From positions 868,001 through 932,000 of the forward strand of contig JAUJYN010000021.1 in NCBI GenBank assembly GCA_030737835.1: a DNA stretch of 64,000 bases. The letters run 5' to 3'. The position numbers were made by a program, and so were the translations under genes. Numbering within the stretch: the stretch's first letter is position 1; every line of letters begins with the position of its first letter. The notes under the pieces were generated by a model that searched no databases, was not told where the DNA came from, and saw only the letters and a list, made by a program, of their open reading frames with translations. The DNA comes from Acorus gramineus. Its lineage: Eukaryota > Streptophyta > Magnoliopsida > Acorales > Acoraceae. Shown here one piece after another: positions 28,271-62,567 of the stretch.

Positions 28271-28634
28271 CATTTCCACCCTCCTAGCATACATCTAAGC
28301 AACACAGAGAGGAAAAAGAGGTTTACCAAGGGGAGGAAAGGAAATCCGGTTGCTCTCCGCGCACCGGAACCTCTCCCAAAAGGTTTCCAATGCTCGGATC
28401 TACCCCCACCACCAAAATGGGCCAAAACAGAGGAGAAGAGAGGGCGGACGGAGGGGCAAATCTCGCCGGAATGGGGATTTGAAACCACCGGGGACCCGAT
28501 CTACACTTCCTAGGTTTTGGGTTTTAAGCTTTGAGGGGTCTAAGGGCCTCAAAAGCAAGAAAAATGGGTAAGGGGAGAGAGAGAGAGCTCAAGGAAGGAG
28601 ATGATGAATAGTGCCAAGATATTTTTAGATCACA

Positions 28635-28644
28635 CTATATATAT
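28635..28644 (-). promoter_or_regulatory. TATA box of solo LTR D
   Basis: Sense ATATATATAG, at the same distance from the LTR start as in A and F. Confidence 0.55.
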
Positions 28645-31380: not shown

Positions 31381-31762
31381 ACACTTCCTAAACATACATC
31401 TAAAAAGAAAGGAAGGAAAGGAAACCTTACCCAAGGAAGGAAAGGAAGGAAGGGAAGATCGGTTGCTCTTCGCGCACCGAAACACCTCCTCCAAGGCCAC
31501 CACCACCAAGATCTCCTTCAGCCCTCGAAATGGCTGAAATCAGAGGAGAAAAGAGGGCGTGAGAAGGGGTCACACACGTGGGAACTCGAATCCGAGACCA
31601 CCGGAAGGTAGATCGGGAGCTCACCTAACCTTTCTCTTCTTAGGGTTTTTGGTTTTGACCACTTGAACTAGGTCACATGGAGGTTTTAAAGAGAGGGAGA
31701 GAGAGAGAAATGCTCGGAGAAGAAGATGAATAGTGGGGGAGTTTGTCTTGGTCGTGGGATTT

Positions 31763-31770
31763 CTTTATAC
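31763..31770 (-). promoter_or_regulatory. TATA-like box of solo LTR E
   Basis: Sense GTATAAAG, 439 bases from the LTR start, upstream of the conserved ACTATTCATC motif. Confidence 0.5.
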
Positions 31771-33340: not shown

Positions 33341-33348
33341 TATAAATA
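33341..33348 (+). promoter_or_regulatory. TATA box of solo LTR F
   Basis: TATAAATA, 264 bases into the LTR. The conserved ACTGTTCATCATC motif begins about 31 bases downstream (33372), the expected spacing for a start site. Confidence 0.65.
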
Positions 33349-33839
33349 AGTGGGATCTAAAATCCCGAGTTACTGTTCATCATCCCCGACCTTGAGCATT
33401 TTCTCTCTCCCCTCTCTCTTTTTCTCACTTTCAAGCCCCCTAGAGCCCTCAAAGCTTAAAACCTAAAGCACGGGAAGTGTAGATCGGGTCCCGATCTACA
33501 CTCCGGTGTTTTCAAATCCCAATTCCGGCGAGTTTTGCCCGTCCGTCCGCCCTCTCTTCGTCCCTGATTTGAGCCATCTCGGCGGTGGAGGTAGATCGGG
33601 GCGTAGGAGAGCCTTTGAGAAAGGTTTCGGCGCGCGGAGAGCCACCGTACTTTCCCTCCTCCCCTTGGTAAGCCCCCTTTCCCTCTTTTTCTTGCATAGA
33701 TGTATGCTAGGGGGGTGGTTTTGTGGTTGGGAGGCGGTTGGCGGCGGTGGGTGGCCGTCGGAGGGCTGTGGGAGGCGGTCGGAGTCTGTGGTGGTGGTCG
33801 GAGGTGGGTGGTAGAGGAGCTCGGGCTCGGGCAGGATGG

Positions 33840-34800
33840 AAGGGCAGCAGCCCCAGGCGCAGCAGGCAGGGCCGCTGGCAGGGCGCGCGTGCGTGCGCGC
33901 GGGCGTGTGCGCGGGCGTGCGCTCGGGCTGGCGCTGGGCGTGCCTGGTGCTGGGCGTGCAGGGCTAGTCGGGTGCTAGGCTGGCAGGGCTAGCTGGGTAG
34001 GCTGGGAGCAGGGCACCAGTTTGCAGGGCGCGCGAGCGCGGGCGCGCGCGCGGGCGTGCGCTCGGGGGGTGCAGGGGCGCTCGGGCATCAGGCGGGCAGT
34101 GCCCCGGGCGTACAGGCGAGCGGTGCTCGGGCCACTCGGCGACGCGCGCAGGCAGGCAACGCGGGCAGCAGCGCTGGCAGGCTGGCAGGCGCGCTGGGCG
34201 CGTGCTGCCAGGCGCGCTGGGCGCGTGTTGCGCGGGCGTGCGCGTGGACGCTGGGTGAGGGTCCCGGGCGCTGGGCGCTGAGCGCTGGGCGCTGGGTCGC
34301 GGGTGCCGGGTGCTGGGCGCTGGGCGCTGGCAGGCGCAGTCGTGCGCGGGTGCGTGCGCGCGGGTGGGTGCGCGGGTGCGCGCGGGTGCTGGCGCGAGCG
34401 GGGGTGTGCGCGGGAGTACGCGCGGGCGCGCGCGGGGGCGCGTGGGCGTGCGCGCGCGCGGCCAGTGCGCCTGGGCAGTGCGCCTGGGCGCTGGGCAGGG
34501 AACCAGTGCGCGCGCGCGCGTGCATGCGTGTGCGTGCGCGTGCTGGGGCGTGCTGGGGCAGTGCGCAGGGTGCTGCGCGAGGGGCGCGGGCTGGACGCAC
34601 GGTGCACGTGGGCGCGCGCGAGTGTGCGCATGCGTGCGGGTGCGCGTCTGGGCTCGTGGGCAAGCGCGCGGCAGTGCGCCGATGGTGCCGGGGTGTGTGC
34701 GTGCGTGCGCATGCAGGGGGCCATGCGAATGGCTGCCCGAGGGTTCGGGTAGGTGTCGGGGCACTCGGACTCGCGTGCGTACGCGCGTGCTCGCATGCGT
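33840..34800 (+). repeat. CpG-dense tract of solo LTR F
   Basis: Reverse complement counterpart of the tract at 7930-9080. It lies wholly inside the second presumed intron. Confidence 0.8.
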
Positions 34801-35258
34801 GCGAGCCCGTATGCATGCTTATCCGAGTTTTGGGTATTTCTAGGCATTTCTATGTATAAATTGTGTGGTTTCTCACCATATTGAATGTCTGTCTTGCAGA
34901 TCTAGACGGACGGTCGCGCGACGACCCCGATCTCCGGTGAGTGGGACAATCCAACCCAGTAGAGAGGTGTTATACGCACTTGGGCGTATACCGACCTCTC
35001 CTGGGGCACCATGGATAAATATTGACATATTGTAATGTGTATATCATGCGAGCATGATTAAATTGTAGAATGCATGTTACCCTAGACTTTGCATGTTAGG
35101 GACTTGCACCCTTAGGATATGTGTATGAGCCATGCAGCATGTCCCTTGGTTCCATGTTAGGAAGCCCGGCCGATGCATGTGCCCTACTAGTTTATTTATT
35201 TAATTAAATGCTAGTATTTTGTTAAATGCATGTTATAGTGAATATTATAGGGGAGGGG

Positions 35259-35358
35259 CCTTGCGAGGACAGCGGTGAGACCCGGGTTAGGGTACACCGT
35301 GTTCCTTGTTTGGTTGTCGGGGTGTCCTATAACGGGAACTCACGCTGCCCTCCCGAGT
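35259..35358 (+). repeat. 100-base module, LTR F copy
   Basis: CCTTGCGAGG to CCTCCCGAGT, here in LTR sense orientation. Confidence 0.75.
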
Positions 35359-35699
35359 TTCTTTCCCCCAATGATATTCCACCTTGTTATAACCTTATGC
35401 ATGTTCCCCGCATCGTAGTTATGCGCCCTGGTGGGTTCTGAGGAATTCAGAACATTAGTGTTCTATAATGTGCCGTCTGCGGATCCAAGTGGATCATATG
35501 CGATGGGTAGGTTGTTCTGTTCCCTTCGTTGGATCCGGTAGAGACTACCCCAGCGTTAGACAGGCCTTCCTGACAGAGGGCTCCCATCAGTAGGCACCTC
35601 CTGATTTAGGACGGACTGTGCTGAATGTGGGAGTAGACCAGGCGGCCTACGGAGTGGAGGAGAGACTATCGGTGGACCAAGGGTGACCAACAGCCTAGT

Positions 35700-36050
35700 C
35701 AGTCCCAAAATCCTATGTCACCCATTGAAGGGTGAGGGTGAGGGTGTAGTGGGTTGGCGATGAACGACCCACTGGAGTTGTGATTGGATGCTTGTAAGTC
35801 CCAAAATCCTATGTCACCCATTGAAGGGTGAGGGTGAGGGTGTAGCGGGTTGGCGGAAGCGACCCGTTGGTTTTTGGTGCAGTTAGTCCCAATATCCTAT
35901 GTCACCCATTGAAGGGTGAGGGTGAGGGTGTGGCGGGTTTGCGGAAGTGACCCGCTGGTTATGTGTAGCCAGTCCCAATATCCTTTGTCGCCCATTGAAG
36001 GGTGAGGGTGAGGGTGTAGTGGGTTGGCGATTGAGCAACCCACGGCTTTG
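35700..36050 (+). repeat. Four-copy 88-base tandem repeat in LTR F
   Basis: Each unit has GGGTGAGGGTGAGGGTG, a G-quadruplex-type run on the + strand, followed by a GTGGGTTGGCG block. Confidence 0.8.
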
Positions 36051-37369
36051 AGTTGTGATATGAATTGTGGATTATAAGGATATCTGGTTGTGGTCAATAT
36101 TGTCTGTGATGCATGGGTTGTGCCGTTCACTGAGCGTGTGGCTCACCCCTCGCATAATATTTTCTTCAGTGTCATCTGAGTCGGATCCAGAGGAGGAGCT
36201 CCCCGAGGGACTTCATCAGTAGCGGAGTAGCGCCACGTCCCGCGAGTTGCAGAGACTATCAGCATCCCTTGTACCAGTATGTAATATTTTCCGTGCTTGG
36301 GCACGCGTTTGGTTGTATTTGGATGTCTTTGTATGTATATTGGCTCTCACAGGACATGTGATTATGTATGGAGTCTGTAGTGTGTTTTGATTACAGATTC
36401 AGTCTTAGTTATCCGCATTTGGTGTATATATCCTGTCAGCCTTGCTTTTGTTGTCTGTATGTCATTCTAGTAGCTTGTGTATGATATATTATTGGCCTCC
36501 TGTGTAGATTCTGATATTTTATATACACTTGCCGCATCTCGGGGACGCCCGGGGCGTGACACCTACTGATGGGAACCCCTGCACGGGACAGTCTCTCTAC
36601 GCCGGGGTAGTCTCTAAAGGATCCAACGAAGGGAACAGATCAGCCTATCCATCGCATATGATCCACTCGGATCCGCTGACAAACACATCTCAACAACTCT
36701 AATGTCATGAATTCCTCAGAATTCCTCCAGGGCGCATAACCAGGATGCGGGGAACAGATATTATAAAATAAGAGGTTGGAATATTACCGGGGGAAAGAAC
36801 CTTGGGTGGGCAGCGTGAGATCCCGATATAGGACATCCCAACAACCAAACAAGGAACACGGAGTACCCTAGTCCGGGTCTCACCGCTGTCCTCGCGAGGC
36901 CCCTCCCCTATAATATTCACTAAGACATGCCAACAATCACATGCTCACATTTGATATATACAAATTAAACTAAGTGGGAACATGCATAAGTCAAGGTTTT
37001 CCTAGTAGGGAAACATGATAATAGGATGCATGGTTCTTATACGGGTCCTAAGGGTACAAGTCCCTAGCATACAAAGTCTAGGGTGGCATGCATACTACAT
37101 ATTATCATGCTTACATGGTTTTCATATTACACAAGTTAACATTACTAATGGTGCCCCAGGGGAGGACGGTACACGCCCAAGGGCATGTAAGGCCTCCCTA
37201 CTGGGTTGGATTGTCCCACTCACCGGTAATCGGGTGGTCACGCGACCGTCCGTCAAGATCTGCAAAATAGGGTAATCAATTCGGTGAGTAAAATCCACAA
37301 ATAAATCCAAAAATACCTAAAAATACACAACACTTGGACAAGCGTACATACGGCCTGTACGCACGCGAG

Positions 37370-41910: not shown

Positions 41911-41916
41911 ACTTTT

Positions 41917-43906: not shown

Positions 43907-45079
43907 ACTTTTGTCACGCCCCAAGGCGGCCGTCCCCGGGACGCGGCAAGTGTATATATGATATCAGCAGTCAATAAAGGAAGTCAATAATATACCCTAA
44001 ACAACATCAACAATTTCAACACAGACAACAAAGGGGCTGACATGATATATACACAAATACCGAAAGCTAAAAGACTGAATCTGTAACTCAAAGACATAGT
44101 ACAGACTCGATACACAATCAAATGTCCTGTGAGAGCCAATATATACAAAGACATCCAAATATAATACAAATGCGTGCCCAAGCACGGAATATAATATATA
44201 CAATCAAAAGGGATGATGATAGCCTCTAAAACTCGCTGGATGTGGCGCTGCTCCGCTACTGATGAAGTCCCTCGGGGAGCTCCTCCTCCAGATCCGACTC
44301 AGATAACACTGGAGAACAATAATTATGCGAGGGGTGAGCCACACGCTCAGTGAACAGCACAACCCATGCATCACAATTTATATTAACCACCAAAATTTAT
44401 TAACCACAATTTTATTCAAGCCTCAAAGTGGCAGGAACTAAACAATCCAGTGGGTCGCTATATCGCCGACCCACTACACCCTCACCCTCACCCCTCAATA
44501 TGGTGACATAGGATATTGGGACTTACCAGGCTGATAATCATCCTTACACAAATCCAGTGGGTTGCTACATCGCCGACCCACCACACCCTCACCCTCACCC
44601 TCAAACTGGTGACAAGGTCTTTTGGGACTTACCAGGCTGATAATCATCCTTACACAAATCCAGTGGGTCGCTACATCGCCGACCCGCCACACCCTCACCC
44701 CTCAATATGGTGACATAGGATCTTGGGACTGACTAGGCTGTTGGTCACCCTTGGTCCACCGATAGTCTCTCCTCCACTCCGTAGGCCGTTTGGCCACTCC
44801 CACATTCAGCACAGTCTGTCCCAAATTAGGAGGTGCCTACTGATGGGAGCCCTCTCACGGGACGGCCTTTCTAACACTGGGGCAGTCTCTACACGGATGC
44901 AACGAAGGGAACAGAACAGCCTATCCATACGCATATGATCCACTCAGATCCACCGACAACACATCTCAACAACTCTAATGTCATGAATTCTTCAGAATTC
45001 CTCCAGGGCACATAACCAAGATGCGGGGAAGCATATATTATAATAATAACGAGGGTTATAATATTATTGGGAAAAGAAA

Positions 45080-45179
45080 CCTTGGGAGGGCAGCATGAGG
45101 TCCCGATATAGGACATCCCGACAACCAAACAAGGAACACGGAGCACCCTAGCCCGGGTCTCAATGTTGACCTCGCAAGG
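45080..45179 (-). repeat. 100-base module, right LTR of C, with flanking direct repeats
   Basis: CCTTGGGAGG to CCTCGCAAGG. ATAATATTAT stands on each side (45058-45067 and 45189-45198), enclosing 121 bases. LTR K has a single ATATTAT at this place and no module. Confidence 0.7.
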
Positions 45180-45619
45180 CCCCTCCCTATAATATTATCT
45201 AAGGCATGCTAATAATCATATGCTAGCATTTAATTTAATAAATTAAACTAGTAGGACGCATGCATAGGCCGAGGCTTCCTAGCATGAGAACAGGGTGACA
45301 GGATGCATGGCTCTTACACATATCCTAAGGGTGCAAGTCCCTAACATACACGGTCTAGGATTGCATGCATACTACATATTCATCATGCTTGCATGGATTA
45401 TATATTACACAAGTTAATATAGGCTATGGTGCCCCAGGGGAGGACGGTACACGCCCAAGTGCATATAACACCTCCCTACTGGGTTGGATTGTCCCACTCA
45501 CCGATAGTCGGGTCGTCGCGCGACCGTCCGTCAAGATCTGCAAAATAGGGTAATCAATTCGGTGAGTAAAATACACAAATACACCAAAAATACTCTAAAA
45601 ATACACAACACTCGGGCAA

Positions 45620-46230
45620 ACGTACATACGGCCCGTACGCACGATGCCCGAGCATCCCGACTCACTCCCGAACCCCTGGGCAGCCGTACATACTGCCACC
45701 CGCCCCGGGCGCCCAGCCGAGCCACGGCCCGCGCGCCCAGACGCACTGCCGAGCCCAGCCCGCACGCCCGGACACCCTGCCGAGCCCCCTGGTGCATCGC
45801 GCGCTCACTGCGCCCTAGCGCAGCAACCCGCACGCACACCCGCACGCCTAGCGCCCCACCGCACGCGCACAGCACGCCCTGCGCCTCTACACAGCGCTCC
45901 GCGCGCACGCCTCCGCACGGCCTCCTGCGCGCAGCACCAGCACACGGCTCCGCACGCGCAGCACGCCCTACGCCTCTGCGCAGCGCTCCGCGCGCACGCC
46001 TTCGCACGGCGCCCAGCACGCAGCACCCGCACACTCCAACTCCACCTGCACGCACGCCCGTGCTGCCCTGCCAGCATGCCCGACAGCGCCCTGCCCTGCG
46101 CCTGCCTGCACTACCCTGCCTGCCTGCCAGCCAACCCGGGACAGCCCCACCACCACTCCGACGGCCACCAATGGCCTCCAACGGTCACCAACTGCCACCA
46201 ACGGCCACCCACCGCCACCCATACTCAAAA
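45620..46230 (-). repeat. CpG-dense tract of the right LTR of C
   Basis: Counterpart of 22050-22620. Frames on both strands are artefacts of composition. Confidence 0.75.
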
Positions 46231-47592
46231 AGACCCCCCTAACAATCATCTAAACAAGAAAGGAAGGAAAGGAAACCTTACCCAAGGAAGGAAAGGAAGG
46301 AAGGGAAGATCGGTTGCTCTTCGCGCACCGAAACACCTCCTCCAAGGCCACCACCACCAAGATCTCCCTCAGCCCTAAAAACAGCTGAAATCAGAGGAGA
46401 AAAGAGGCATGAGAAGGGGTCACGCATGTGGGAACTCAAATCCGAGACCACCGAAAGGTAGATCGGGAGCTCACCTATCCTTTCTCTTCTTAAGGTTTTT
46501 GATTTCAACACCTCTAGCTAGGTCAAAAATGAGGTTTAGAGAGTGGAGGAGAGAGAGATTTGGTGGAGAAGATGATGAATAGTGGGGGGGAGATATTTTT
46601 AGCTCACTTATAAGTCAACCCCCACTTAGATTAGGCTAATCTAGGTTAATTAGGGTTTAAGCTAGGATTAGGGAGGCTTAAGTGTGGTTTGACCCTAGTC
46701 AACCCAACCACACTAAAATCCAAACACTTTTGACCAAGTCATGGGGCCCACTTTGACCAAGTCAAGTCTCCCAATGACTTTTCGCTCGGTCAAAACCCGG
46801 ATACGCTTCGGAACTGTGAAATTCTGAAACGTTATCGGAATTCGATGAAACTTTCGTGAGTGGCTTAGAATGGCACCAGGACACATAATATGCAATTAGA
46901 TTTTCAATCGGAGTCCTCAAACACAGGACGATAGCTAACAGTCCAAAATTTTAGCGGTTCCGATCGAAAAACGAAAAAAACCAAAAAACTGCCAGAATGC
47001 CCCAATGGTTACCAAAAGGTTAAAAGTGACACATATATAACACCGTATGTACGTTTGTCCGAGTGTTGGGTATTTTTAGCGTATTTTTGTATGTATTGTG
47101 TATTTTACTCACCGAGTTGATTACCCTGTCTTGCAGATCTTGACGGATGGTCACGCGACGACCCGGGTATTGGTGAGTGGGACAATCCAACCCAATAGGG
47201 AGACGCTATATGCACTTGGGAGTATACCGTCCTCCCTTGGGGCACCATAGTTTAATATTAACTTGTATAATATGTAATCTATGCAGCATGATTAGTATGT
47301 AGTATGCATGCCACCCTAGACCTTGTATGTTAGGGACTTGCACCCTTAGGATATGTGTAAGAGCCATGCATCCTGACACCATGCTTCATGCTAGGAAAGC
47401 CTCGACCTATGCATGTGTCCTATTAGTTTAATTTATTAAATTAAATGCGAACTTATGGTATTTTTGCATGCCTTAGTAAGTATTATAACCTGGTGATTAT
47501 TATATATGTTCCTCGCATCTTAGTTATGCGCCCTGGAGGAATTCTGAAGAATTCATGACATTAGTAGAGTCTCCCTTCTCTGGATTAAGGGG

Positions 47593-48670: not shown

Positions 48671-51342
48671 TGTCACGCCCCAGGGCGGCCGTCCCCGGAA
48701 CGCGGCAAGTGTATATATGATATTCGCAGTCTATACAGGAGATCAATAAAATACTCTAAACAACATCGAAATGACAACACAGACAATAAGGTGGCTGACA
48801 TAATATATATACAAATAGCGGAAGCTCAAACGACTGAGTCTGTAATTCAAAGACATATTACAGACCCGATACATATTCAACTGTCCTGTGAGAGCCAATA
48901 TATATACAATGACATCCAAATACAAGTATGTGCCCAAGCACGGATAACAATACATACAATCAAAGGGATGCTGATGGTCTCTCACTCGCAGAACGTGACG
49001 CTGCTTCGCTACTGCTGTAGTGCCTTGGGGAGCTCCTCCTTCAGATCCGACTCAGACAAAACTGGAGAAAAATATATGCGAGGGGTGAACCACACGCTCA
49101 GTGAATAGCACAACCCATGCATCACAATTCATATTATCCACAAATAACTTATAGTCCCTAACACGGGAGCAACTACACATTCTAGTGGGTCGTTTCATCG
49201 CCAACCCACCTCCCCCCCTCACCCTCACCCTTTCCAGGGGGTGACATGGGCCTCTTGGGGCATACTAGACCGCTCTCCACCCCTGGTCCACCCGGTAACC
49301 TCTCCCACCCTCGGGCCTCCGCCTGGTATACTCCCGCTATCAGTACTGTCCGACGCATCGGAGGTACCTATGGACGGGAGCCCTCTGTCAGGTATAGCCA
49401 ACGCCGGGGAGTTCCTACATCGGATCCAACCAAAAGGAGAAGACAACCTACTCACACGGATACGATCCTCTTGGATCCGTCGACACCGATTGTAACTCTA
49501 CTAATGTCATGAATTCTCAAGAATTCCTCCAGGGCGCATAACTAAGATGCGGGGAGACACATATTATAACAACAAGGTTATAATATTCTCTAAGGCATGC
49601 TTGTAACTATATGCTCTCATTTTGATTTAATTAGATTAAACTAGATGGGAACATGCATAGTTCGGGGCATGGTTTCTAGGCATGCATAGGCCTCTCTATA
49701 CATGATATATGGGTGCATTTCCCTAGCATACAAAGTCTAAGGTGGCATGGATACATCATAATAATCATGCATGCATAGGTTTTACATTATTACAAGATAA
49801 TACACAATTACGGTGCCCCAGGGGAGGGCAATGCACGCCTACGTGCATCGAACGCCTCCCTACTGGGTTGGATTGTCCCACTCACCAAAACCCGGGTCAT
49901 CCCGTGATCGTCCATCAAGATCTGCAAGACAGGGGCATTCAATATGGTGAGTAAACTACACAATTATATAATAAATTTACTAGAATTACCAAATACTCGG
50001 ACAAGCATGCATACGGGCCCGCACGCACGCGAGCACGCGCGTGCGCACGCGAGTCCGAGTACCCCGACACCCTCCCGAACCCACGGGCAGCCATACGCAC
50101 GGCCACCCGCACGCGCAAGCACCAATGCGCACGTCCACACGCGCCCCTGCGCCTCGGGCGCACTGCCGTGCTCTTGCCCGCGCACCCAGACGCGCTGCTG
50201 CGCCCCTGCCCGCGCGCCAGACACACTTCCGCGTGCGCGTCCAGCCCTGCATGTACCCGCGCGTACTGCGCCCCTGCGCACCACTCCGCGCCCACGCCCG
50301 CGCGTCTGCGCGTACGCGTGCGCGCCAGCCAGCGCGCCCGTCTGTGCGCGCCAGCGCCTGCCTGCCTGCGCGTGTCAGCGCCTGCCTGCGTGCGCAGACC
50401 CGCGCGCACACGGGCGGATGACCCCGCACGCGCGCTCGAGCCCTTCCCACCCGCTCCTCAGCTCTCCCACACCCCCTTAGCACTCATGCATACGTGCATA
50501 ACCATTTACACACCCAAATCAAGCATTTAAACAAGGATAGGGAGGAGAAAAGCTTACCCAAAGAGAGGAAAGGAAAAGGAGGGAACTCGGGTGCCCTTTG
50601 CGCACCGAATCGCCACCACCAAGACCACCACCACCAAGCCCACTCTCAGCCCTAAACTGGCTGAAAACAGGGGAGAAGAAAAGCCATGAGAGGGAGGTAG
50701 AGAAAAGGGGAAATCCAAAACAAAACCCATGGGAAGGTAGATCAAGCCCTTACCAATCTTTTTCCCTTCTAGGGTTTTCTTGTTCTTTTCCTTCTACTAG
50801 CTCTAATGGAGGAAACAAGGGAAGGGGAGATATGGATTTTTGTGTGTGAGTGAGAGAGAGAGATGAGAAGGAGAGGAAGAAGAAGTGCACGCCCACTTAA
50901 AGGGCCACACACACACTCACACACTCACACACTCACACTTAGGGCAAAATAGGGTTTTGGGTGAGCTTTGACTTGGGTACACCTAACCACACTAACAAAC
51001 AAAAGGATTTGACCAAGTCAATGGTCAAACTTGACTTGGTCAAAGTCATCTTTGACTTGGTCAAGTCTCCCAATGACTTTTCGCTTGGTCAAAACCCGGA
51101 TACGATTCAGAACTGTGAAATTCTGAAACATTACCGGAATTTGATGAAATTTTTGTGAGTGGCTTGAAATGGCACCGGACACATAATGTGCAGTTAGATT
51201 TTCAATCGGAGTTCTCAAGCTCAGGATGATAGCCAAAAGTCCAAAATTATAGCGGTTCCGATCGAAAAAAAAGCAAAAGTCAAAAAACTGCCAGAAATAC
51301 TCCAAAGGTGCCCAGAAGGCTAAAAGTGACACATATATAACA
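48671..51342 (-). mobile_element. J: solo LTR, target duplication CGGAC
   Basis: 2,672 bases, TGTCACGCCCC to TATATAACA, with CGGAC at 48666-48670 and 51343-51347. K-type: only one 88-base unit (49180-49260) and no 100-base module. CpG tract at 50010-50480, exon-like block near 50590-50660. It is inserted in LTR I. Confidence 0.93.
50010..50480 (-). repeat. CpG-dense tract of solo LTR J
   Basis: Shorter, with GCGCCTGCCTGCGTG runs. No coding call. Confidence 0.7.
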
Positions 51343-51745: not shown

Positions 51746-54161
51746 CTACAACCCAGGCCTCTTCAACACGGACGACATTGGGAGTAAACATTCCATGCTC
51801 GCAAAGCTAACCCAATGGAGAACAACTACCCTCAATAATCACTGATCGAGATATCGAATACTATTGTACTCCCACACCGTTGCGTCGCTCAGACACAAAG
51901 GGGGGTTGCCTCTGCTCTCACGTAGAAATAATCCCAAGGCACATAACCCAACAGGCGGTTCATATACACGCCTAGCACGGGTAGGCCTAGCTTAATGCCC
52001 CACTATCGGCTTAACAAACCGATAAGATAATGAATTCTCCTGAATTCCAAACAAGTGCATCGCTCGGATGCACGGGGCGATTACATCGCTAGCGCTCTAA
52101 CTAATAAGGTACAACCCGACAGTGGGTCATACCCACACCTATTTCAGATAGGCCTAATCAGTTTTAACATGAGCATAATTAATATATCCAGGTGAATTTT
52201 GTATCTAGCTATGTGCATGAACCATATGCACAATCATCTAATAATTATAGCGACACTCCCTAACATGGATTTACATCATAATAAATCATACAACATGCAT
52301 ACATGGTCATTAATCACATAAACACACAAGGCCTAACTTAAACATGCGTTGGATATCACCAACTTAAAAGAAATGGTCAAGCGCGATCTCGCGCACTAAC
52401 AGGTGCATGCCAATATTCCAAACGAACCTGAGTCGAGTAGGAATTCGCATCTACTTACTCAGTTCATTCAGAGGGAGAAAGCGGGAGAGATCATCATCTC
52501 ATGGAGCTGGTCATAGCTTTTCCCCATTAGCATGGGCGCAACAACTACACCACGCCCTCGAGTCTTATCGCAAGGGAATATTAGGCAGGTGCCCGTTATT
52601 AACCCAGACTTATTCATGCTGGATATTCCAATTAATATGGTGAGAGTATTATTACAATACTACCTAAGGCATGCCATATTCTATACATCCATACACATTA
52701 CCAAAAATACATGCCCATACTAGAGGGGCTCATGCAACACAATCATTCATACATGAATACAATACATGTATATAAGCCTAGCATGCAAGATATCTACATA
52801 TTATAGCTTAACCATGGCCATACTACTTATCTACACAAGTAGTATAGCTAGGGGGCCCCATCGATGCGCGATGCGCGTCTACGCGCGTCGAGCGCATCCC
52901 GAGAGGGGGGGGGATTGGATCGAACCACTCACCGATACCCGGATCGCCGCGCGTCCGGTCTACGAGATCTGCAAAACACAACCAATGATCCATAATTAAA
53001 TTATGGAACCTCCTATCACACATATAAGCTTACTTCATGAAGACCCTAACCCCTGATACTTCCATATTATCACCCAAGACACATGCAACCAACTCCTTGA
53101 CACTCAACCAAGCAAAACTGCTAAACCTGCTGCAACCAGCCCTACTAATTGGTCTTCACAGCACCCAATACACTTCTAAAAATTATGAAATAAATCATGC
53201 ACATTCTATGATATGCTGGGATCATAATCCATGCAGACATTAGAACCTAATTTTGCCTCTACAAGCCCGAAACAAATCATTTCCTGAAGCAGGTCAATTC
53301 CTACGCGAATCTGGACAGGTCATGCAAAACTGGTTCTAACTTACACCACAGATATCATAATGACCCCACATTTCATATATAACATCTAGACACATATATG
53401 ATCAAATCATAAGAAGATATAATCCTAAAAATATGCCTCTAAATACTAGATTCACTGAGATCTTTAAAAGACAGTGAGCTGCCTTACCGAAACAGGGGGA
53501 GGGAAATGGGGAGATGCGGGGTTATCGACACACCCACGACCACCTCAACCACCACCACCACTACCACTGTTATATATGTGTCACTTTTATCCTTCTGGTC
53601 ACCATTGGAGCTTCTGGCAGTTTTTCAACATTTTCTTTTTTTCGATCGGAACCGCTAAAATTTCAGGCTTTTAGCTATCATCCTGAGTTTGAGGACTCCA
53701 ATTGAAAATCTAACTGCATATTATGTGTCCTGGTGCCATTCCAAGCCACTCTCGAAAATTTCATCAAATTCCGATAACGTTTCAGAATTTCATAGTTCCG
53801 AATCGTATCCGGGTTTTGACCAAGCGAAAAGTCATTGGGAGACTTGACTTGCTCAAAGTTGACCCTTGACTTGGTCAAATGGTTTTGGTTTTTAGTGTGG
53901 TTGGGTTGACTAGGGTCAAATCTCACCTAAACCTAACCTAAACCTAGCTTAACCTAATTTAATTCTAATTGGTGAGTGTGTGAGAGTGTGTGTGGTGTGT
54001 GTGTTAAGTAAAGTCCCACGCCTAGGTATAGTGCCCCCCCCCCCCACTATTCATCTTTTCTCTCAAGCTCTCTCAAAAGCTCTCACTCCCCTCTCTTTAT
54101 TTCCTCTTTATAACCTACTTAGAGTGTTCAAAAGAAGAAACCCTAGAAGGAGAAAAGATAG

Positions 54162-55995
54162 GTGAGGACCCGATCTATCCTTCCATGGTTTCATTTTCGA
54201 GTTCCCTCATGTGTGACCCCCTCTCATAGCCTCTTTTCTCCCCTGTTTTCAGCCCTTCCTTGGCTGAGAAGAAGGCTTGGTGGTGGTGTTGGAGGTGATA
54301 AATCGGTGCGCGAAGAGCACCCGATCTTCCCTCCCTTCCTTTCTTCCCTTGGGTGAGCCTTCTTTCCTTCCTTTTCTTGTTTAGATGCATGTTTAGGAGG
54401 TGTTTTTGGATGTGCTAGGTGAGCATGAGGGTTTGGGGTGGGGGAGGGCTGAGGGAGCTGGTAGAGCCGGCTCGGGCAGTGCGGGCTCATCGGCACGTGC
54501 GCACGAGCCTGCGCGCGCAGGCCAGTAGGGAGGGCAGGCGCGCTGTCGGGCGAGCTGGCAGGGGACGCGGGCGTGCGCGCGGGTGTTGCGCAGGGGGCGT
54601 AGTACGCGGGCTGAGCGGGCGGTGTGCGGGTACTGCGCAGGGGGGCCAGTGCGCGCAGGGCGAGCAGGCGTGCGAGCGGGGAGTACATGCGGGGTACTGC
54701 GCTGAGGCATAGTGCGTGCGGGTGTGCGTGCAAGGCGCTGCGCTGGGGCGCAGTGCGCGCGGCTGCATCCGGGGTGCGTGCATGCGCCCTAGCGTGCGGC
54801 GTGTCTGGGCACGCGGGCTGGGGCTCGGCGGCGTGTCTGGGTGTGCGGGCAGGGGCTCGGCAGCACGTCTGGGCGCGCGGTAGTGCACCCAAGGCTCGGG
54901 CGTGCGTGCGCACCGATGCGTGCGCGTGCGGGTGGCCGTGCGCAGGGCTGCCCGGGGGGGGTGCGGAAGTGAGTCGGGGCACTCAGGCTCGCGTGCGTGC
55001 AGGCCGTATCCACGCTTGTCCGAGTGTTGGGTATTTTTAGCGTATTTTTGTACGTATTTTGTATGTATTGTTTATTTTACTCACCGTGTTGAATACCCTA
55101 TCTTGCAGATCTTGACGGACGGTCATGCGACGACCCGGGTATTGGTGAGTGGGACAACCCAACCCAGTTGGGAGGCGTTCGATGCACGTAGGCGTGCATT
55201 GCCCTCCCCTGGGGCACCATAGTTGCATATTAGCTAGTATAAATTGTAAACTATGCCTTGCATGAATATTTTGTTGTATCCATGCCACCTTAGCTATGCA
55301 TGCATGATAAATATGATATATCCCTGCCACCTTAGATTTTTATGCTAGGGATACGCACCCTTACATCATATAGAGGCCTATGCATGCCTAGACACCTTGC
55401 CCCGACCTGTGCATGTTCCCACCTAGTTTAATTCAGTTAAATTAAATGTGAGCATGCCTTAGAGAATATTATCACTTGTTGTTATAATATGTGTCCTCCC
55501 GCATCTTAGTTATGCGCCCTGGAGGAATTCATGTGAATTCATGACATTGTAGAGTTGAGATCGGTGTCGGCGGATCCAAGTGGATCGTATCCGTGTGGGT
55601 AGGTTGTTCTCTTCCCTTCGCTGGATCCGTGTAGGAACTTCTCAGCGTTAGACAGGCCGTCCTGATAGAGGGCTCCCATCAGTAGGCACCTCCTGATTTG
55701 GTTTTGGACTATGCTGAATGTGGGAGTAGACCAGGCGAGCTACGGTGTGGAGGAGAGGCTATCGGTGGACCAAGGGCGATTAACAGCCTAGTCAGTCCCA
55801 AAAGACCATGTCACCAGTTTGAGGGTGAGGGTGAGGGTGAGGGTGTAGTGGGTTGGCGATGAGCGACCCACTGGTTTGTGTAGTTGTTGCCACTTAGAGG
55901 CTATGAATGATTTGAGGTTAATATGAATTGTGATGCATGGGTTGTGCTATTCACTGAGCGTGTGGCTCACCCCTCGCATATATATTTTTCTCCAG
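54162..55995 (+). other. Candidate spliced leader of K, 5' LTR
   Basis: Introns would be 54162-54252 (91 bases), 54353-55108 (756) and 55145-55995 (851). In the 3' LTR the same three are 91, 787 and 847 bases, and the 36-base exon is kept exactly in length. Sites read ATAG/GTGAGG, TTTTCAG, TTGG/GTGAGC, CTTGCAG, ATTG/GTGAGT and TTCTCCAG. Inferred from consensus and conservation only. Confidence 0.55.
54460..55015 (+). repeat. CpG-dense tract of the 5' LTR of K
   Basis: Lies inside the second presumed intron. Open frames on both strands are not genes. Confidence 0.75.
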
Positions 55996-56334
55996 TGTTA
56001 TCTGAGTCGGATCAGCAGGAGGAGCTCCCCGAGGCACGTCAGCAGTAGCGGAGCAGCGTCACGTTCCCGTGAGTGTTAGAGGCTATCAGCATCCCTTTTG
56101 ACTGTATGTATTATATTTCCGTACTTGGCACCCGTTGTAATATATTTTTGAATTACCGACTCAGTCTTTTAGCTTCCGCTATTTGTGTATATATATCATG
56201 TCAGCCTTGCTTTTGTCTATGTTGTCATTTTTGGTGTTGTTTAGAGTATATTATTGACCTCCTGTATAGACTGCTGATATCATATATACACTTGCCGCGT
56301 CCCGGGGACGGCCGCCCTGGGGCGTGACAAAAGT

Positions 56335-56347
56335 TGGTATCAGAGCC
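56335..56347 (+). other. Primer binding site of element K
   Basis: TGGTATCAGAGCC, five bases after the 5' LTR end; initiator tRNA-Met type. Confidence 0.92.
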
Positions 56348-56449
56348 TGGTCCTGTCAGAGCCAATGGTCTTCTTTTTCGTAGAGATGAGTCCTAGGATT
56401 TCTATATGAGTATTCTGATCCTAGTGTCTAGTTTTCTTAGGTTGCTGAT

Positions 56450-57853
56450 ATGCCTCGTCGCAGAGGAATGCGTGGACGTGGTCCCTCTCGACCTTTGGAG
56501 GTTCCCGGACCTACCAGAGGTGAGGATGCTACTGGAGAGTCCTCGGCTGTGAGGCCAGGATTGGCGCAGGAGCCTCCTGCATGGGAGCGTGCTTACGCTC
56601 GGATAGCGGATTTGGTGGAGACTCAGACGAGAGCATTAGAGGCCCAGACGAGGGCGTTAGCTGAGCAGGCTAGAGAGATTCAGGAGCTAAGGGCGGCCCG
56701 TGATGCAGTTCCACAGGTCCCCTTGATGACAGATCCGCCTGTGGTACCAGATGTACCTCCTGCTCCCGTGGTGATTCCAGCGGTAGGAGTTCAGGATCCC
56801 CTGGTGAGGGAGGTGGAGCTAGAGGTTGCAGCGCGAGTGCACCAGAGTGGTCTCACTGCCTTTCTAAAGCTGCACCCTCCTGAGTTCCATGGACAGACGG
56901 CGGATCCCCTTGCCCCTAAGCGTTGGTTGATGGAGGTGGACAAGATCTTCTCGACCATGCATTGAACCGACCGCCAGCGAGTCTCCCTGGCTACCTTCAT
57001 GCTGAAGGGTAGCGCCGCCGACTGGTGGGCTACCCGATCGGTGGACATCCCGGAGGGAGTGGACCGGCTTTTATGGGCGGGATTCCAGAGGTATTTCCTG
57101 GAGGAGTACTTCCCATTCTCGACGCGCCAGATCGTGATGCAGGAGTTTGAGCAGCTGACGCAGTGCTCCATGTCTATCGCTGACTACTCTACGCGCTTCA
57201 CGAGGCTTTATAGGTTCGCCCCCGCCTTGGTGATGGACGAGGAGACGCGGTGCCGTCGATTCGAGATGGGTCTCATCAGCACCATTCGGGTGCATGTCTC
57301 TTCGCAGGCTTTCACGAGGTACTTGGACTTGGTGTCTTGGGTGAAGACAGTCGAGCGAGACCTCGGGGCCTCCATGGGGGTTCCAACCCCTTCTGTAGAC
57401 CAGAGACCTCCCAGGAGCCAGGACTAGGGACAGCACAAGAAGAAGAGGCCCCGCTTTGATCAGTTAGCGGCTGCCTCTCCTCCAGCAGATGTGGTGCCAG
57501 CGCGAGGTCCAGCACCCATTGCGGCAGTGCCAGTCCAGGCCAGGCGACCAGAGACGCGGCGCTGTTACCACTGTCAGCGCATTGGGCATATTTTGTATAA
57601 CTGCCCAGATGCTGGCCGACCCAGCGTGCTGCCTCCGCAGCAGCAGCCATACCAGCAGCAGCAGCCACAGGGTGGCCGTGTTGACTAGTGGAGGCAGCCT
57701 GCGCAGCCTGCGAGGCGTGCCTCTGCTCCTCAGCCGCAGTTTGTTCAGGGCAGAGTTGCAGCACTTTCGGCCGAGGAGGAGCAGGCTTCGGGTATCGTGG
57801 TCCGAGGTATTGTTTTGATTTCCCAGCTCCCTATATATATGTGTGTTATTTGA
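56450..57853 (+). pseudogene. gag: gag of element K, three in-frame stops
   Basis: Starts MPRRRGMRGRGPSRPLEV and keeps one frame throughout: coiled-coil (ALEAQTRALAEQAREI), gag domain (RWLMEVDKIFSTMH, GSAADWWATRSVDIPEG, SIADYSTRFTRLYRF), zinc knuckle CYHCQRIGHILYNC, a Gln-rich stretch, and an end at RGIVLISQLPIY, the first residues of the missing protease. Stops are at 56963-56965 (TGA), 57425-57427 (TAG) and 57686-57688 (TAG). With no frameshift, the decay is by point mutation after an otherwise complete gag. Confidence 0.9.
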
Positions 57854-57938
57854 TTTCGGAGCATGAGTTTCCACTAGAGTTAGTAGTGTTCATTAAGGGT
57901 GATGTCTTCTTCTGGTCTACCTTCTCTGGATTAAGGGG

Positions 57939-58038
57939 CCTTGTGAGGTCAGCGTTGAGACCCGGGCTAGGGTACTCCGTGTTCCTTGTTTGGTTGTCGG
58001 GATATCCTATATCGGGACCTCATGGTGCCCTCCCAAGG
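57939..58038 (+). repeat. 100-base module, internal copy of K
   Basis: CCTTGTGAGG to CCTCCCAAGG, between gag and the polymerase remnant. Neither LTR of K carries the module, so in this element it is internal only. Confidence 0.75.
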
Positions 58039-58105
58039 TTTTTTTTCCCAGTCAAGGAAAACCTTGGAAACATCAAATTGATGGTGGATTAAGTGCGAGT
58101 TTTGG

Positions 58106-58880
58106 TTGGAGCGTATGGCCTTTTTGGGCCATGTGATTTCCAGCGAGGGCATATCTGTGGACCCGGACAAGACGCTCACCATGTCGAATTGGCGTCGACC
58201 ATTGAACCCCCACAGAGATTCGGAGCTTCCTGGGCTTGGCGGGTTATTACAGGAGGTTTGTCGAGGGTTTCTCGAAGATAGATGTACCTCTTACCCGCCT
58301 CACTCGAAAGGATGTCCGGTTCGAGTGGTCCCAGTCTTGCGAGGAGAGTTTCCTGGAGTTGAAGCGAAGGCTCACCTCAGCGCCAGTTCTTACCCTTCCG
58401 TCTGGGAGGGGTGGGTTCGTAGTATACTCCGATGCATCGCGGTAGGGGGTGGGTTGCGTCCTGATGCAGCACGGTAAGGTAGTGGCTTACGCGTCGCGTC
58501 AGTTGAAGCCCCATGAGTAGAATTACTCCACCCACGACCTAGAGTTGTCAGCGATCATCTTTGCTCTGAAAGATGTGGAGGCATTACCTCTATGGCGAGG
58601 AGTTCGAGCTCTTTACTGATCATAAGAGCTTGATTTATTTGCAGTCCCAGCGGGAGCTCAACATCCGTCAGAGACGTTGGGTCGAGTTCCTGAAGGACTG
58701 TGATTGTGACATCGCTTACCATCCTGGTAAGGTGAATGTCGTGGCAAATGCTCTTAGTAGGCAGCCCTTGGGCATGGCCGCCCACATGGCTGTACGTCGT
58801 TGGAGGCTTCTGGAGGAGGCCGCTTGCTGGCTCAGGCCAATGGCGTCCTCCATGTCTCGCAGCTGAGGCGTTGGGTCCAC
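58106..58880 (+). pseudogene. Reverse transcriptase thumb and RNase H of element K
   Basis: Reads MAFLGHVISSEGISVDPDK, then after a frameshift MAGYYRRFVEGFSKIDVPL, KDVRFEWSQSCEESF and TLPSGRGGFVVYSDASR (RNase H start). The frame continues through a stop to a QHGKVVAYASRQLKPHE stretch, then after another frameshift to [16 protein letters not shown] and [16 protein letters not shown], the end of RNase H. Several stops and frameshifts make it inactive. The reverse transcriptase YxDD region is absent. Confidence 0.88.
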
Positions 58881-59099
58881 GATCCTGCTCACGTCATCCC
58901 GTTCGAGCCGCTCGTCTTCAAGCCGGACTTGTCATTCGTCGAGCAGCTGATCGAGATCCTGGACCGCCGCGAGAAGGGGCTCCGCACCAAGACTGTCCAG
59001 CTGGTCAAGGTGCGATGGCAGCACCGTTCCGGTGCCGAGGCCACTTGGGAGCTCAAGGACGCCATGCGTGACGCGTATCCGCATCTTTTCCCTTCCTAG
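58800..59099 (+). pseudogene. Integrase C-terminal tail of element K (chromodomain-like)
   Basis: Follows RNase H directly; the zinc-binding and catalytic core domains of integrase are deleted. It reads [20 protein letters not shown], then IEILDRREKGLRTKTVQL, VKVRWQHRSGAEATWELKD and a YPHLF end before TAG. The KVRW..ATWE pattern is that of the tail of Tekay/Del-type chromoviruses, where it may guide insertion to particular chromatin. Open over 99 codons but without a catalytic domain. Confidence 0.88.
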
Positions 59100-59134
59100 A
59101 TGTTCTTGTATTTATTTTGAGGACAAAATTTCCT

Positions 59135-59147
59135 AAGGGGGGAAGAA
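59135..59147 (+). other. Polypurine tract of element K
   Basis: AAGGGGGGAAGAA, abutting the 3' LTR start at 59148. Confidence 0.92.
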
Positions 59148-62022
59148 TGTTATATATGTGTCACTTTTATCCTTCTGGTCACCATTGGAGCATTCTGGCA
59201 GTTTTTCAACTTTTTCTTTTTTTCGATCGGAACCGCTAAAATTTCAGACTTTTAGCTATCATCCTGAGTTTGAGGACTCCGATTGAAAATCTAACTGCAT
59301 ATTATGTGTCCTGGTGCCATTTCAAGCCACTCTTGAAAATTTCATCGAATTCCGGTAACGTTTCAGAATTTCACAGTTCTGAATCGTATCCGGGTTTTGA
59401 CCAAGCGAAAAGTCATTGGGAGACTTGACTTGGTCAAAGTTGACCCTTGACTTGGTCAAATGGTTTTGGTTTTTAGTGTGGTTGGGTTGACTAGGGTCAA
59501 ATCTCACCTAAACCTAACCTAAACCTAGCTTAACCTAATTTAATTCTAAGTGGTGAGTGTGTGAGTGTGTGTGTGGTGTGTGTGTGTGTTTAAGTGAAGT
59601 CCACGCCTAGGTATAGTGCCCTCCCCCCCCAACTATTCATCATATTCTCCATTTCAAGCTCTCTCTCTCTCTCACTCCCCTCTCTTTATTTCCCCTTTAT
59701 GACCAAGCTATAGTGTTCCAAAGAAGAAGCCATTGAAGGAGAAAAGATAGGTGAGGACCCGATCTATCCTTCCATGGTTTCATTTTTGAGTTCCCTCATG
59801 TGTGACCCCCTCTCATAGCCTCTTTTCTCCCCTGTATTCAGCCCCTCCTTGGCTGAGAAGAAGGCTTGGTGGTGGTGGTCTTGGAGGTGGCAAATCGGTG
59901 CGCGAAGAGCACCCGATCTTCCCTCCCTTCCTTTCCTCCCTTGGGTGAGCCTTCTTTCCTTCCTTTTCTTGTTTAGATGCATGTTTAGGAGGTGTTTTTG
60001 GATGTGCTAGGTGAGCATGAGGGTTTGGGGTGGGGGAGGGCTGAGGGAGGTGGTAGAGTATGCTCGGGCAGTGGGGGCTCATCAACGAGTGCGCGCGAGC
60101 TTGCGCCGGCAGGCAGGCAGGCAGGGCAGACTGGCAGGCACACTGTCGGGCGAGCTGGTAGGGGACGTGGGCATGCGCGTGGGCGTGCACGCGGGTGCTG
60201 TGTAGGGGGCGCAGTATGCGGGGCGAGCGGGCGGTGTGCGGGTGCTGCTAGGGGGCACAGTGCGCGCAGGGCGAGCAGGCGTGCGAGCGGGGAGTGCGTG
60301 CGGGGTACTGCGCTGGGGCACAGTGCGTGCGGGTGTGCGCGGAGGGCGCTGCACTGGGGCGCATTGCGCACGGGTGCATTCGGGGCTGGACGCGCGATGC
60401 GCGCGGGCGCGCGCGTGCGTGCGCCCGAGCGTGCGGCGTGTCTGGGCGCGCGGGCTGGGCTCGGCGGCCTGTCTGGGCGTGCGGGCAGGGGCTCGGCAGC
60501 ACGTCTGGGCTTGCGGGCTGGCGAGCGGCAGTGCGCCCCGGGCTCGGGCGTACGTGCATGCGTGCACACCCATGCGTGTGCGTGCGGGTGGCCGTGCGCA
60601 GGGCTGCCCGGGGGGGGTGCGGGAGTGAGTCCGGGGCACTCGGGCTCGCGTGCGTGCGGGCTGTGTGTACGCTTGTCCGAGTGTTGGGTATTGTGTATTT
60701 TACTCACCGTTTTGAATACCCTGTCTTGCAGATCTTGACGGACGGTCACGCGACGACCCGGGTATTGGTGAGTGGGACAACCCAACCCAGTTGGGAGGCG
60801 TTCGATGCACGTAGGCGTGCATTGCCCTCCCCTGGGGCACCATAATTGCATATTAGCTAGTATAAATTGTAAACTATGCCTTGCATGAATATTTTGTTGT
60901 ATCCATGCCACCTTAGCTATGCATGCATGATAAATATGATATATCCATGCCACCTTAGATTTGTATGCTAGGGATATGCACCCTTACATCATATTAGAGG
61001 CCTATGCATGCCTAGACACCTTACCCCGACCTGTGCATGTTCCCACCTAGTTTAATTCAGTTAAATTAAATGTGAGCATGCCTTAGAGAATATTATCACT
61101 TGTTGCTATAATATGTGTCTCCCCGCATCTTAGTTATGCGCCCCGGAGGAATTCATGTGAATTCATGACATTGTAGAGTTGAGATCGGTGTCGGCGGATC
61201 CAAGGGGATCGTAACCGTGTGGGTAGGCTGTTTCTCTTCCCTTCGTTGGATCCGTGTAGGAACTTCTCAGCGTTAGACAGGCCGTCCTGACAGAGGGCTC
61301 CCATCAGTAGGCACCTCCTGATTTGGTTTCGGACTGTGCTGAATGTGGGAGTAGACCAGGCGAGCTACGGTGTGGAGGAGAGGCTATCGGTGGACCAAGG
61401 GTGATCAACAGCCTAGTCAGTCCCAAAAGACCATGTCACCAGTTTGAGGGTGAGGGTGAGGGTGTAGTGGGTTGGCGATGAGCGACCCACTGGTTTGTGT
61501 AGTTGTTGCCACTTAGAGGCTATGAATGATTTGAGGTTAATATGAATTGTGATGCATGGGTTGTGCTATTCACTGAGCGTGTGGCTCACCCCTCGCATAT
61601 ATATTTTTCTCCAGTGTTATCTGAGTCGGATCAGCCGGAGGAGCTCCCCGAGGCACGTCAGCAGTAGCGGAGCAGCGTCACGTTCCCGCGAGTGTTAGAG
61701 GCTATCAGCATCCCTTTCTTTATTGTATGTATTATATTTCCGTGCTTGGGCACCCGTTTGTATTATATTTGGATGTCATTGTATATATTGGCTCTCATAA
61801 GACAGTTGATTATGTATCGAGTCTGTAATATGTTTTTGAATTACAGACTCAGTCTTTTAGCTTCCGCTATTTGTGTATATGTATCATGTCAGCCTTGCTT
61901 TTGTCTGTGTTGTCATTTTTGGTGTTGTTTAGAGTATGTTATTTACCTGCTGTATAGACTGCTGATATCGTATATTTATACACTTGCGCGCGTCCCGGGG
62001 ACGGCCGCCCTGGGGCGTGACA
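59148..62022 (+). repeat. 3' LTR of element K
   Basis: 2,875 bases. Parallel to the 5' LTR with donor 59751, acceptor 59841, donor 59945, CpG tract 60060-60670, acceptor 60731, exon-like 60732-60767, donor 60768 and acceptor 61614. It keeps the ~80 bases lost from the 5' copy (around 61755-61835). Confidence 0.93.
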
Positions 62023-62567
62023 ACCACCATCTCTTCAGCCTCTCCACCAGCCCTTCTTGGCAGAAACCAGGGGTGCAAGGGCATGAGAAGGGGATTGAGA
62101 GAAGAGAAACAACAACAACAACAACACATGCTCACCTTTTCTCACCCTTTCTCACTCTTTCATGAGCTTCTTCTTCATTCTTTCCTCCATTAACAACACA
62201 CACACAACCAAAAAAATAGAGAGGGAGAGGGAGTGAGAGGTTTCCACAGAAGGGGGGTTTTAAATGGAGATAAAGTGAGTTGGTGGGGGGGGGGGGACAA
62301 GACCAAATCGTCCCTCACCAGAAGGGGGGTTTTTATGAAATCTAACTAAAAAATGAGCATCTCATGATAAAATCATATTTAAACCTCTTCATCTTGGATT
62401 TTAACAAAATTAAATCCAAATACCAAATCGGAAATACATAACTTCCAGGAGAAAAATTATGTAGCCAAATTTTCAATCAGAGCGCTCCAACTCCTGCAGG
62501 TGGCTAAAAGCCAAAATTTTAGCTACTCCGATCGAAAAATAAGGCTCCAAATGACACAGGCATAACA

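Follow-up and report, generated by a model that had tools for sequence, protein, structure and literature searches.

A candidate multi-intron gag leader in the long terminal repeats of a Tekay/Del-like retrotransposon family of Acorus gramineus

The 64,000-nucleotide stretch of Acorus gramineus DNA analyzed here (contig JAUJYN010000021.1, positions 868,001 to 932,000; "the window") is a nest of long terminal repeat (LTR) copies from a single Tekay/Del-like Ty3/gypsy retrotransposon family, and it raises the question of how gag could be translated from an RNA in which a very long, ATG-rich stretch of LTR sequence would precede the start codon. An initial annotation of the window proposed that the leader is multi-exonic, with splice-like sites recurring in a fixed order in the LTRs, and that a spliced and an unspliced class of RNA would follow. 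The reading favoured in the present work, which we regard as fairly probable, is that a fully spliced leader serves for the translation of gag while unspliced RNA serves as the genome. The proposal of leader splicing is strengthened by a strand-specific shortage of ATG within the exon-like blocks, by T-rich intron ends and by the joint loss of all intron 1 signals in one clade, whereas the argument from conservation falls away and the original three-intron model requires a fourth intron.

Fifteen LTR copies, 10 of them full length, were extracted from the window; the letters that designate them are those of the present analysis and differ from the earlier ones, and neither a few short fragments nor the 5' LTR of element O, which has an internal deletion, entered the alignments. 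Two sets of copies were used for most counts: a 13-copy window set, which omits K3 and B as the pair partners of K5 and C, and a 53-copy set, which adds to the 15 window copies another 38 LTR regions of this genome, taken from 42 that matched the opening 1001 bases of the reference copy K. The predicted anatomy of the element K leader is as follows, in window coordinates.

53568..56330, + strand: 5' LTR of element K, the reference copy (from LTR matches, ends and primer-binding site)
54061..54161, + strand: exon 1, with donor AG/GTGAGG; its start was chosen for counting
54162..54252, + strand: predicted intron 1, with branch-like CTCAT and acceptor TTTTCAG
54253..54352, + strand: exon 2, 100 nt (ATG counts)
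54353..55108, + strand: predicted intron 2, with T-rich ends, a CpG-rich middle, branch-like CTCAC and acceptor CTTGCAG
55109..55144, + strand: exon 3, 36 nt, or 37 in copies A, I, B and C (ATG counts)
55145..55995, + strand: predicted intron 3, with branch-like CTCAC and acceptor TCTCCAG
55163..55213, + strand: conserved hairpin in intron 3, just past the donor, a candidate mark of unspliced RNA
55996..56103, + strand: exon 4, its end set by the analyst at the GTATGT site
56104..56440, + strand: proposed intron 4, with donor GTATGT, the LTR end, the primer-binding site, branch-like CTGAT and acceptor TTTTCTTAG
56334..56347, + strand: primer-binding site TTGGTATCAGAGCC, within proposed intron 4 (from the sequence)
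56450..56965, + strand: gag of K, from its start (MPRRRGMRGRGPSRPL) through the first open stretch
59148..62023, + strand: 3' LTR of element K (from LTR matches and ends)
60732..60767, + strand: exon 3 equivalent in the 3' LTR of K
61615..61724, + strand: exon 4 equivalent in the 3' LTR of K

The three junctions originally named (54161/54253, 54352/55109 and 55144/55996) are exact in K, and the ordered recurrence of the sites holds in the 15 window LTR copies wherever these are covered, with the exceptions of intron 1 in F, I, B and C and of the second acceptor in F, which reads CAA. Across the copies, GT-AG sites are maintained in order together with a branch-like site of the form CTNAY upstream of the acceptors, a feature absent from the initial annotation. 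In the 53-copy set the first donor has the form GTRAG in 40 of 51 copies, 7 of the other 11 retaining GGT; its GT is kept in 47/51, the 4 losers being F, I, B and C. The branch site and acceptor of intron 1 are kept in 44/51 copies, the donor of intron 2 in 51/51 and its acceptor in 41/46, the donor of intron 3 in 43/46 and its acceptor in 39/43, and the GTATGT donor of the proposed fourth intron in 38/42. Two copies with short LTRs (L011 and L036) lack exon 3 and several sites, and the ends of their deletions do not fall at splice sites. Because the copies share a common descent, such ordered recurrence is expected in any case, and it was rejected as proof of splicing when taken alone. Two other stretches of the LTR were also observed to be well conserved: a T-rich acceptor-like sequence about 30 bases into intron 2 (54376-54384, TTGTTTAG), after which 50 of 53 rows have an ATG at 54385, and a segment of about 45 bases close to the 3' end of intron 3 (55930-55973, GTGATGCATGGGTTGTGC...CACTGAGCGTGTGGCTCACCCC), which, despite its intronic position, is one of the best-conserved parts of the LTR and contains two near-invariant ATGs.

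If the blocks form a leader that is scanned by the ribosome, then ATG is expected to be scarce in the blocks but not in the introns that are removed. Exon borders for the counts were those of the initial annotation, and only the exon 1 start and the exon 4 end were set by the analyst; in the test with the 13-copy window set, for which expected counts were generated by a first-order Markov model, exon 4 was cut at 56095, before its end was inspected. Judged by ratio, none of the 64 triplets is more strongly depleted in the blocks than ATG (8 observed, 27.4 expected), while its reverse complement CAT is not depleted there (42 observed, 25.3 expected) and ATG in the introns stands at its expectation (382 observed, 394.6 expected). 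With the larger set, 12 ATGs are observed in exon 1 and 3 in exon 2 against expectations of 18.1 and 37.4 (51 copies), 9 against 29.7 in exon 3 (45 copies), and none against 43.2 in exon 4 (42 copies). The corresponding intron counts are 83 observed and 46.5 expected for intron 1, 437 and 422.5 for intron 2 (both in the 53-copy set), and 1067 and 1026 for intron 3 (41 copies). All nine of the ATG gains inferred for exon 3 lie at CpG sites, as expected of decay after insertion.

The position of the ATG-free sequence can also be evaluated. If an ATG position is counted only when 3 or more copies have it, no ATG-free interval within 54061-56330 is longer than 55937-56106, which holds exon 4 and has ATGs at 55933 (41 copies), 55937 (40 copies) and 56106 (40 copies) on its flanks, and the second longest is 54226-54385, which holds exon 2. 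Of 20,000 random placements of four blocks of the same lengths within 54061-56330, counts as low as those observed were reached by 3 for ATG, as compared with 3,569 for CAT, 2,346 for ATA, 1,679 for GTA, 1,066 for CTG and 110 for TGC; circular shifts of the blocks were as low for ATG in 9 of 2,269 cases. The scarcity of ATG in the blocks supports the predicted splicing of the leader in a manner that is both discriminating and strand-specific.

Removal of introns 1-3 alone would leave two to three upstream ATGs (uATGs) between the primer-binding site and gag, as well as those in the LTR tail, and a fourth intron is therefore needed. A probable one, which the initial annotation did not contain, runs from the GTATGT at K 56104 to the acceptor TTTTCTTAG. 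The ATG-free block stops exactly at this donor-like GTATGT, which ranks second among the conserved sense-strand donors. The acceptor lies 9-10 nt upstream of the gag ATG in 12/12 leaders that were located through the primer-binding site, comprising 4/4 in the window (K, L, C and O) and 8/8 fetched loci with an intact primer-binding-site string; a thirteenth leader, L022, has a mutated primer-binding site and was located through the acceptor motif itself. The ATG that follows the acceptor agrees with the start of the annotated Acorus gag P0002, which begins MPPRRGRRGRGPSRPL (MPPRRGRRGRG). Upstream of the acceptor, each of the 13 leaders contains 2-3 uATGs, the last of which opens an out-of-frame upstream open reading frame (uORF) that runs past the gag ATG in 9/13 leaders and is mutated in L042 and L046. 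From exon 1 to the acceptor, the removal of the introns lowers the number of uATGs from 44 to 1 in K, from 49 to 0 in L and from 62 to 0 in C.

Base composition and the history of intron 1 also bear on splicing. The T content of the exons is 0.20-0.29, while that of intron 1 is 0.387, that of intron 3 is 0.299 overall, that of the LTR part of intron 4 is 0.400, and that of intron 2 is 0.486 at both ends; by the rule that introns be richer in U than exons, which has been applied to the barley element BARE1, these segments resemble introns, but the middle of intron 2 and the beginning of intron 3 do not. In the clade formed by F, I, B and C all three signals of intron 1 (donor, branch site, acceptor) have been lost jointly, which had gone unremarked, and the same joint loss was seen by eye in three further copies. 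The intron 1 region contains no ATG in any of these seven copies, but the expectation for three of the seven is just 2.1 (P 0.10), so that the result is consistent with splicing of the leader and is not proof of it. In the clade of F, I, B and C, intron 1 would have undergone exonisation, being absorbed into a longer exon. At the point where the intron 1 donor was lost, copy I (33477-33501) carries an inverted repeat with perfect 12-bp arms, GTGTAGATCGGG-T-CCCGATCTACAC, which is also found in C and B; F and two of the three further copies without intron 1 signals have it shortened or have lost it.

A conserved hairpin begins eighteen bases 3' of the intron 3 donor. Among 12 distinct window sequences 95.8% of the cells in the hairpin are paired, and none of 500 shuffles matches either this pairing or the covariation score, while changes on both sides of a pair are reached by 30/500 shuffles and the number of pair types by 414/500. 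Among 32 distinct sequences 90.5% of cells are paired (4/500 shuffles), with 1/500 shuffles reaching the covariation score and 252/500 the both-side changes; helix 1 is paired in 97.6% of cells, with compensatory changes, and helix 2 in just 77.2%. The folding energy is low relative to shuffles in two of the three copies tried (z of -3.07, -1.52 and -3.39), and a search of the window against Rfam gave no matches at gathering thresholds. As the hairpin is inside intron 3, it would be present only in RNA that is unspliced at that intron. Retroviral packaging signals are located downstream of a splice donor, and by analogy the hairpin may have a packaging role. A second potential pairing, at 55079-55150, would join the branch-like ACTCACC on the 5' side of exon 3 to the donor GGTGAGT on its 3' side, with the exon looped out between them. 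It persists in almost every copy, but it is found in 96.8% of cells compared to 96.0% in shuffles, 108/500 of which reach the observed value, and its covariation is not above that of the shuffles.

Under the favoured reading, transcription from the 5' LTR would begin a few hundred bases in and would produce a leader of 2.4-3.3 kb with its introns. Removal of the three LTR introns and of the fourth, which would extend from exon 4 in the LTR to 9-10 bases before gag, would shorten this leader to roughly 340 nt and make the gag start the first AUG. Because the primer-binding site is removed with the fourth intron, the spliced RNA could only be translated, while RNA that escapes splicing would keep both the primer-binding site and the intron 3 hairpin and could be the template for reverse transcription, which is why the introns would persist in the element. 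The unspliced RNA would yield little Gag, owing to its 44-62 upstream start codons and the overlapping uORF. The division into two RNA classes is sound as logic. The strongest version of the scheme, in which gag is translated only from the mRNA that has lost all four introns, splicing is the switch between messenger and genome, the hairpin marks the genome, and the long LTRs exist as carriers of introns, falls slightly short of an even chance in our estimation.

A number of observations weigh against the splicing of the leader, and the rival explanations are best judged together with them. The blocks had been described as conserved while the rest differs freely, and equal divergence of exon-like and intron-like segments had been named as the outcome that would refute splicing; for substitutions that outcome is largely what was found, and it is only by change of length that the middles of introns 2 and 3 stand apart. 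Substitutions per aligned site in the 13 window copies amount to 0.392 in exon 1, 0.302 in intron 1, 0.309 in exon 2, 0.175 in exon 3 and 0.110 in the first 100 nt of exon 4, with 0.120 and 0.091 in the first and last 75 nt of intron 3, and the tree-based rates are 0.050, 0.031, 0.022 and 0.025 for exons 1-4 and 0.033, 0.042, 0.022 and 0.019 for introns 1-4. Exons are not consistently slower-evolving than the adjoining intron, and exon conservation was rejected as proof of splicing because of this similarity. The gap fraction is 0.006-0.057 in exons, 0.377 in the middle of intron 2 and 0.271 in the middle of intron 3, but just 0.028 in intron 1. Conserved splice-site scores on the antisense strand match the height of those on the sense strand for donors and nearly do so for acceptors (antisense donor mean 7.71 and acceptors 8.44, 8.22 and 8.20; best sense donor 5.44 and acceptors 9.24 and 8.72). 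In single copies, ranked with weight matrices, predicted donors come 3rd-13th among decoys, and the intron 2 donor of K and the intron 4 donor of L are outside the top 14 sites. Weight-matrix scores were rejected as proof, since the antisense control is comparable and each copy contains many decoys, and on conservation and motif scores alone splicing would not be believed. Five exon-exon junction patterns gave 0 matches in the window and 46 loci (L047-L052 left out), a sixth (exon 1-2) being too loose for use with 31 matches. Viral contigs gave 0 matches for the exon 3-4 and exon 2-3 junction patterns and also 0 for the unspliced exon 3 pattern; they therefore show no relative and are uninformative on splicing. 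Two segments are not richer in U than the exons and are unlike plant introns: the middle of intron 2, where the T content is 0.161 and the GC content 0.751, and the initial 60 nt of intron 3, where the T content is 0.228. The start-codon evidence has its own weaknesses: when depletion in exons is measured as a z-score, it is stronger for GCC (-5.3) and GGG (-4.1) than for ATG (-3.8); U3 is also ATG-poor (36 observed, 69.7 expected), as is, mildly, the LTR part of intron 4 (262 observed, 366.7 expected); and ATG gains reconstructed by parsimony agree in direction but are unspecific, ranking 7 of 64 triplets (18/129 hits in exons, 221/707 in introns), or 2 for gains outside CpG (8/114 in exons, 159/599 in introns). 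In addition, the 38 added copies were selected by their likeness to the beginning of K, and the copies are related, so that placements and counts are non-independent, a relatedness that is uncorrected in any of the ATG tests.

Were splicing absent altogether, the blocks being kept for RNA structure or for DNA-level functions of the LTR and the GT and AG motifs by descent and chance, then the similar rates of blocks and flanks, the similar antisense scores, the conserved hairpin, the GC-rich middle of intron 2 and the ATG-poor U3 would all be in order; such an account is nonetheless improbable in view of the scarcity of ATG, and not of its reverse complement, in precisely these blocks, the joint loss of every intron 1 signal in one clade, and the T-rich intron edges. 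The comparable antisense scores could also mean that the antisense strand is the spliced one, in an antisense LTR transcript, but the two best antisense donors are simply the reverse complement of the branch-like CTCAC sites, and antisense ATG, which reads CAT on the sense strand, is not scarce in the blocks, which makes this a very remote prospect. An equally remote one is that the blocks code for a small protein of the LTR whose frame closes with the TAG of exon 4: in copy L one frame stays open across exons 2-4 when these are joined (by eye), but this reading was rejected because exon 3 has 36 or 37 nt and does not maintain the frame, exons 2 and 4 lack ATG in every window copy, and the 63-aa peptide has no homologue; third-position changes in exon 3, moreover, are mostly at CpG sites (by eye).

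The alternative that deserves the most attention, although it too is unlikely, accepts splicing but limits it to introns 1-3 or makes it variable, with exons 1-4 forming a short polyadenylated LTR RNA or gag being translated without scanning. Intron 4 is in fact the less certain part of the model, because its acceptor ranks outside the top 14 sites in K, L and C while a better-scoring rival 57 bases upstream (ending at 56383 in K) ranks 4th in K, 6th in L and 14th in C, although use of that rival would leave two uATGs. The T-rich LTR tail after GTATGT could be a polyadenylation region, exon 4 precedes such a tail in the 3' LTR as well, and in two leaders, C and O, gag shares its frame with the uATG nearest to it. 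If intron 4 went unused, however, the avoidance of ATG in exons 1-4 would be left unexplained, since 2-3 uATGs would still precede gag, and neither the fixed distance from acceptor to gag in the primer-binding-site-located leaders nor the termination of the ATG-free block exactly at the donor would be accounted for.

The remaining LTR copies in the list below were identified from LTR matches, and those in which the intron 1 signals are missing are marked.

6175..9715, - strand: LTR copy B, without intron 1 signals
12499..16054, - strand: LTR copy C, without intron 1 signals; a 5' LTR with leader
20307..23422, - strand: LTR copy E
25582..28906, - strand: LTR copy F, without intron 1 signals and with CAA at the second acceptor
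29145..32209, - strand: LTR copy G
33077..36561, + strand: LTR copy I, without intron 1 signals
43911..47042, - strand: LTR copy L, a 5' LTR with leader
48671..51342, - strand: LTR copy N

The family is likely to belong to the Tekay/Del clade, members of which have long LTRs. The gag of element O (40473-41840, - strand) matches Retrotrans_gag (9.1e-16), Ty3_capsid (3.2e-09) and zf-CCHC (2.5e-04) in Pfam, and all 7 proteins retrieved with it, out of 7,989 that were scored as candidates, come from the annotation of Acorus gramineus. A stretch at 58893-59096 resembles Chromo (E 1.7e-4, 21.9 bits) but is under the Pfam cut-off of 25.1, a stretch in another frame (58736-59068) gave no Chromo match, and two internal stretches tried for reverse transcriptase and RNase H gave no Pfam matches. 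The internal regions of K (56331-59147), C/B (9716-12498) and O/J (39026-41923) are just 2.8-2.9 kb long; their gag parts can be aligned, the remainder only piecewise and with differing gaps, and from their size much of pol should be missing. One of them keeps an open gag frame of 456 aa (40473-41840), and these elements are possibly a non-autonomous lineage that bears gag. The 5' LTR of element O (41924-43359) has a deletion, seen by eye, that starts inside intron 2, reaches the LTR tail and takes out exons 3 and 4. The two LTRs of K (53568-56330 and 59148-62023) diverge patchily, with 14 differences in 99 sites in exon 1, 13 in 100 upstream of exon 1 and 10 in 393 in U3, but 0 in 75 at each end of intron 3, a pattern which suggests template switching or conversion and not plain ageing.

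As far as the accessible parts of the cited papers go, the Acorus case is a mixture of known systems in how it would work and a member of none by test. Diaspora, a soybean Ty3/gypsy element, has donors predicted in the LTR 1.4-2.2 kb before gag-pol and two acceptors flanking the start codon, and the 2005 paper describing it states that no intron upstream of gag was then known in any LTR element (PMC1142308); among the papers examined, introns upstream of gag are discussed in this one only. It shares with the Acorus family the predicted donors in the LTR, the predicted acceptors at the start codon and an otherwise very long leader, but it is of another lineage, related to Calypso and Athila, and its sites are predictions from a single family, without a comparative test, a chain of four introns or uATG evidence (PMC1142308). 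In BARE1 (Ty1/copia), Ogre and EVADE, splicing takes place within gag-pol (PMC3735527, PMC12786077). Spliced BARE1 RNA favours Gag, and its RNA pools for translation and packaging are separate, but its 104-nt intron is just beyond the gag domain and not in the leader, and its packaged RNA is distinguished by promoter and end processing (PMC3735527). Ogre and EVADE are likewise plant LTR elements in which a spliced intron separates RNA roles, and EVADE splicing produces a short gag mRNA, but in the available descriptions neither is a leader system (PMC6317226, PMC12786077). Foamy viruses have a donor in the R region of the LTR, where the binding of U1 silences the poly(A) site of the 5' LTR, but they are animal retroviruses with one major donor and a separate spliced transcript for pol (PMC3694450). 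The Tekay/Del chromoviruses are matched by the Ty3-type gag with its zinc knuckle and by the chromodomain-like 3' end, which is below the Pfam cut-off here, but the table of that clade mentions no leader introns (PMC6317226). Expression of the Acorus elements may be low, as no Tekay elements were among those expressed in sunflower (PMC7730604).

The balance between translation and reverse transcription in LTR elements has been called a major question (PMC3735527), and what very long LTRs and leaders signify in certain plant Ty3/gypsy elements has been called hard to ascertain (PMC1142308). The anatomy predicted for the Acorus leader would provide a direct answer to both, and one that can be tested by ordinary plant RNA-seq. 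If it is true, intron-bearing LTRs would matter for the annotation of LTR-derived transcripts, and would bear on the role of solo LTRs as donors of promoters and exons to genes.

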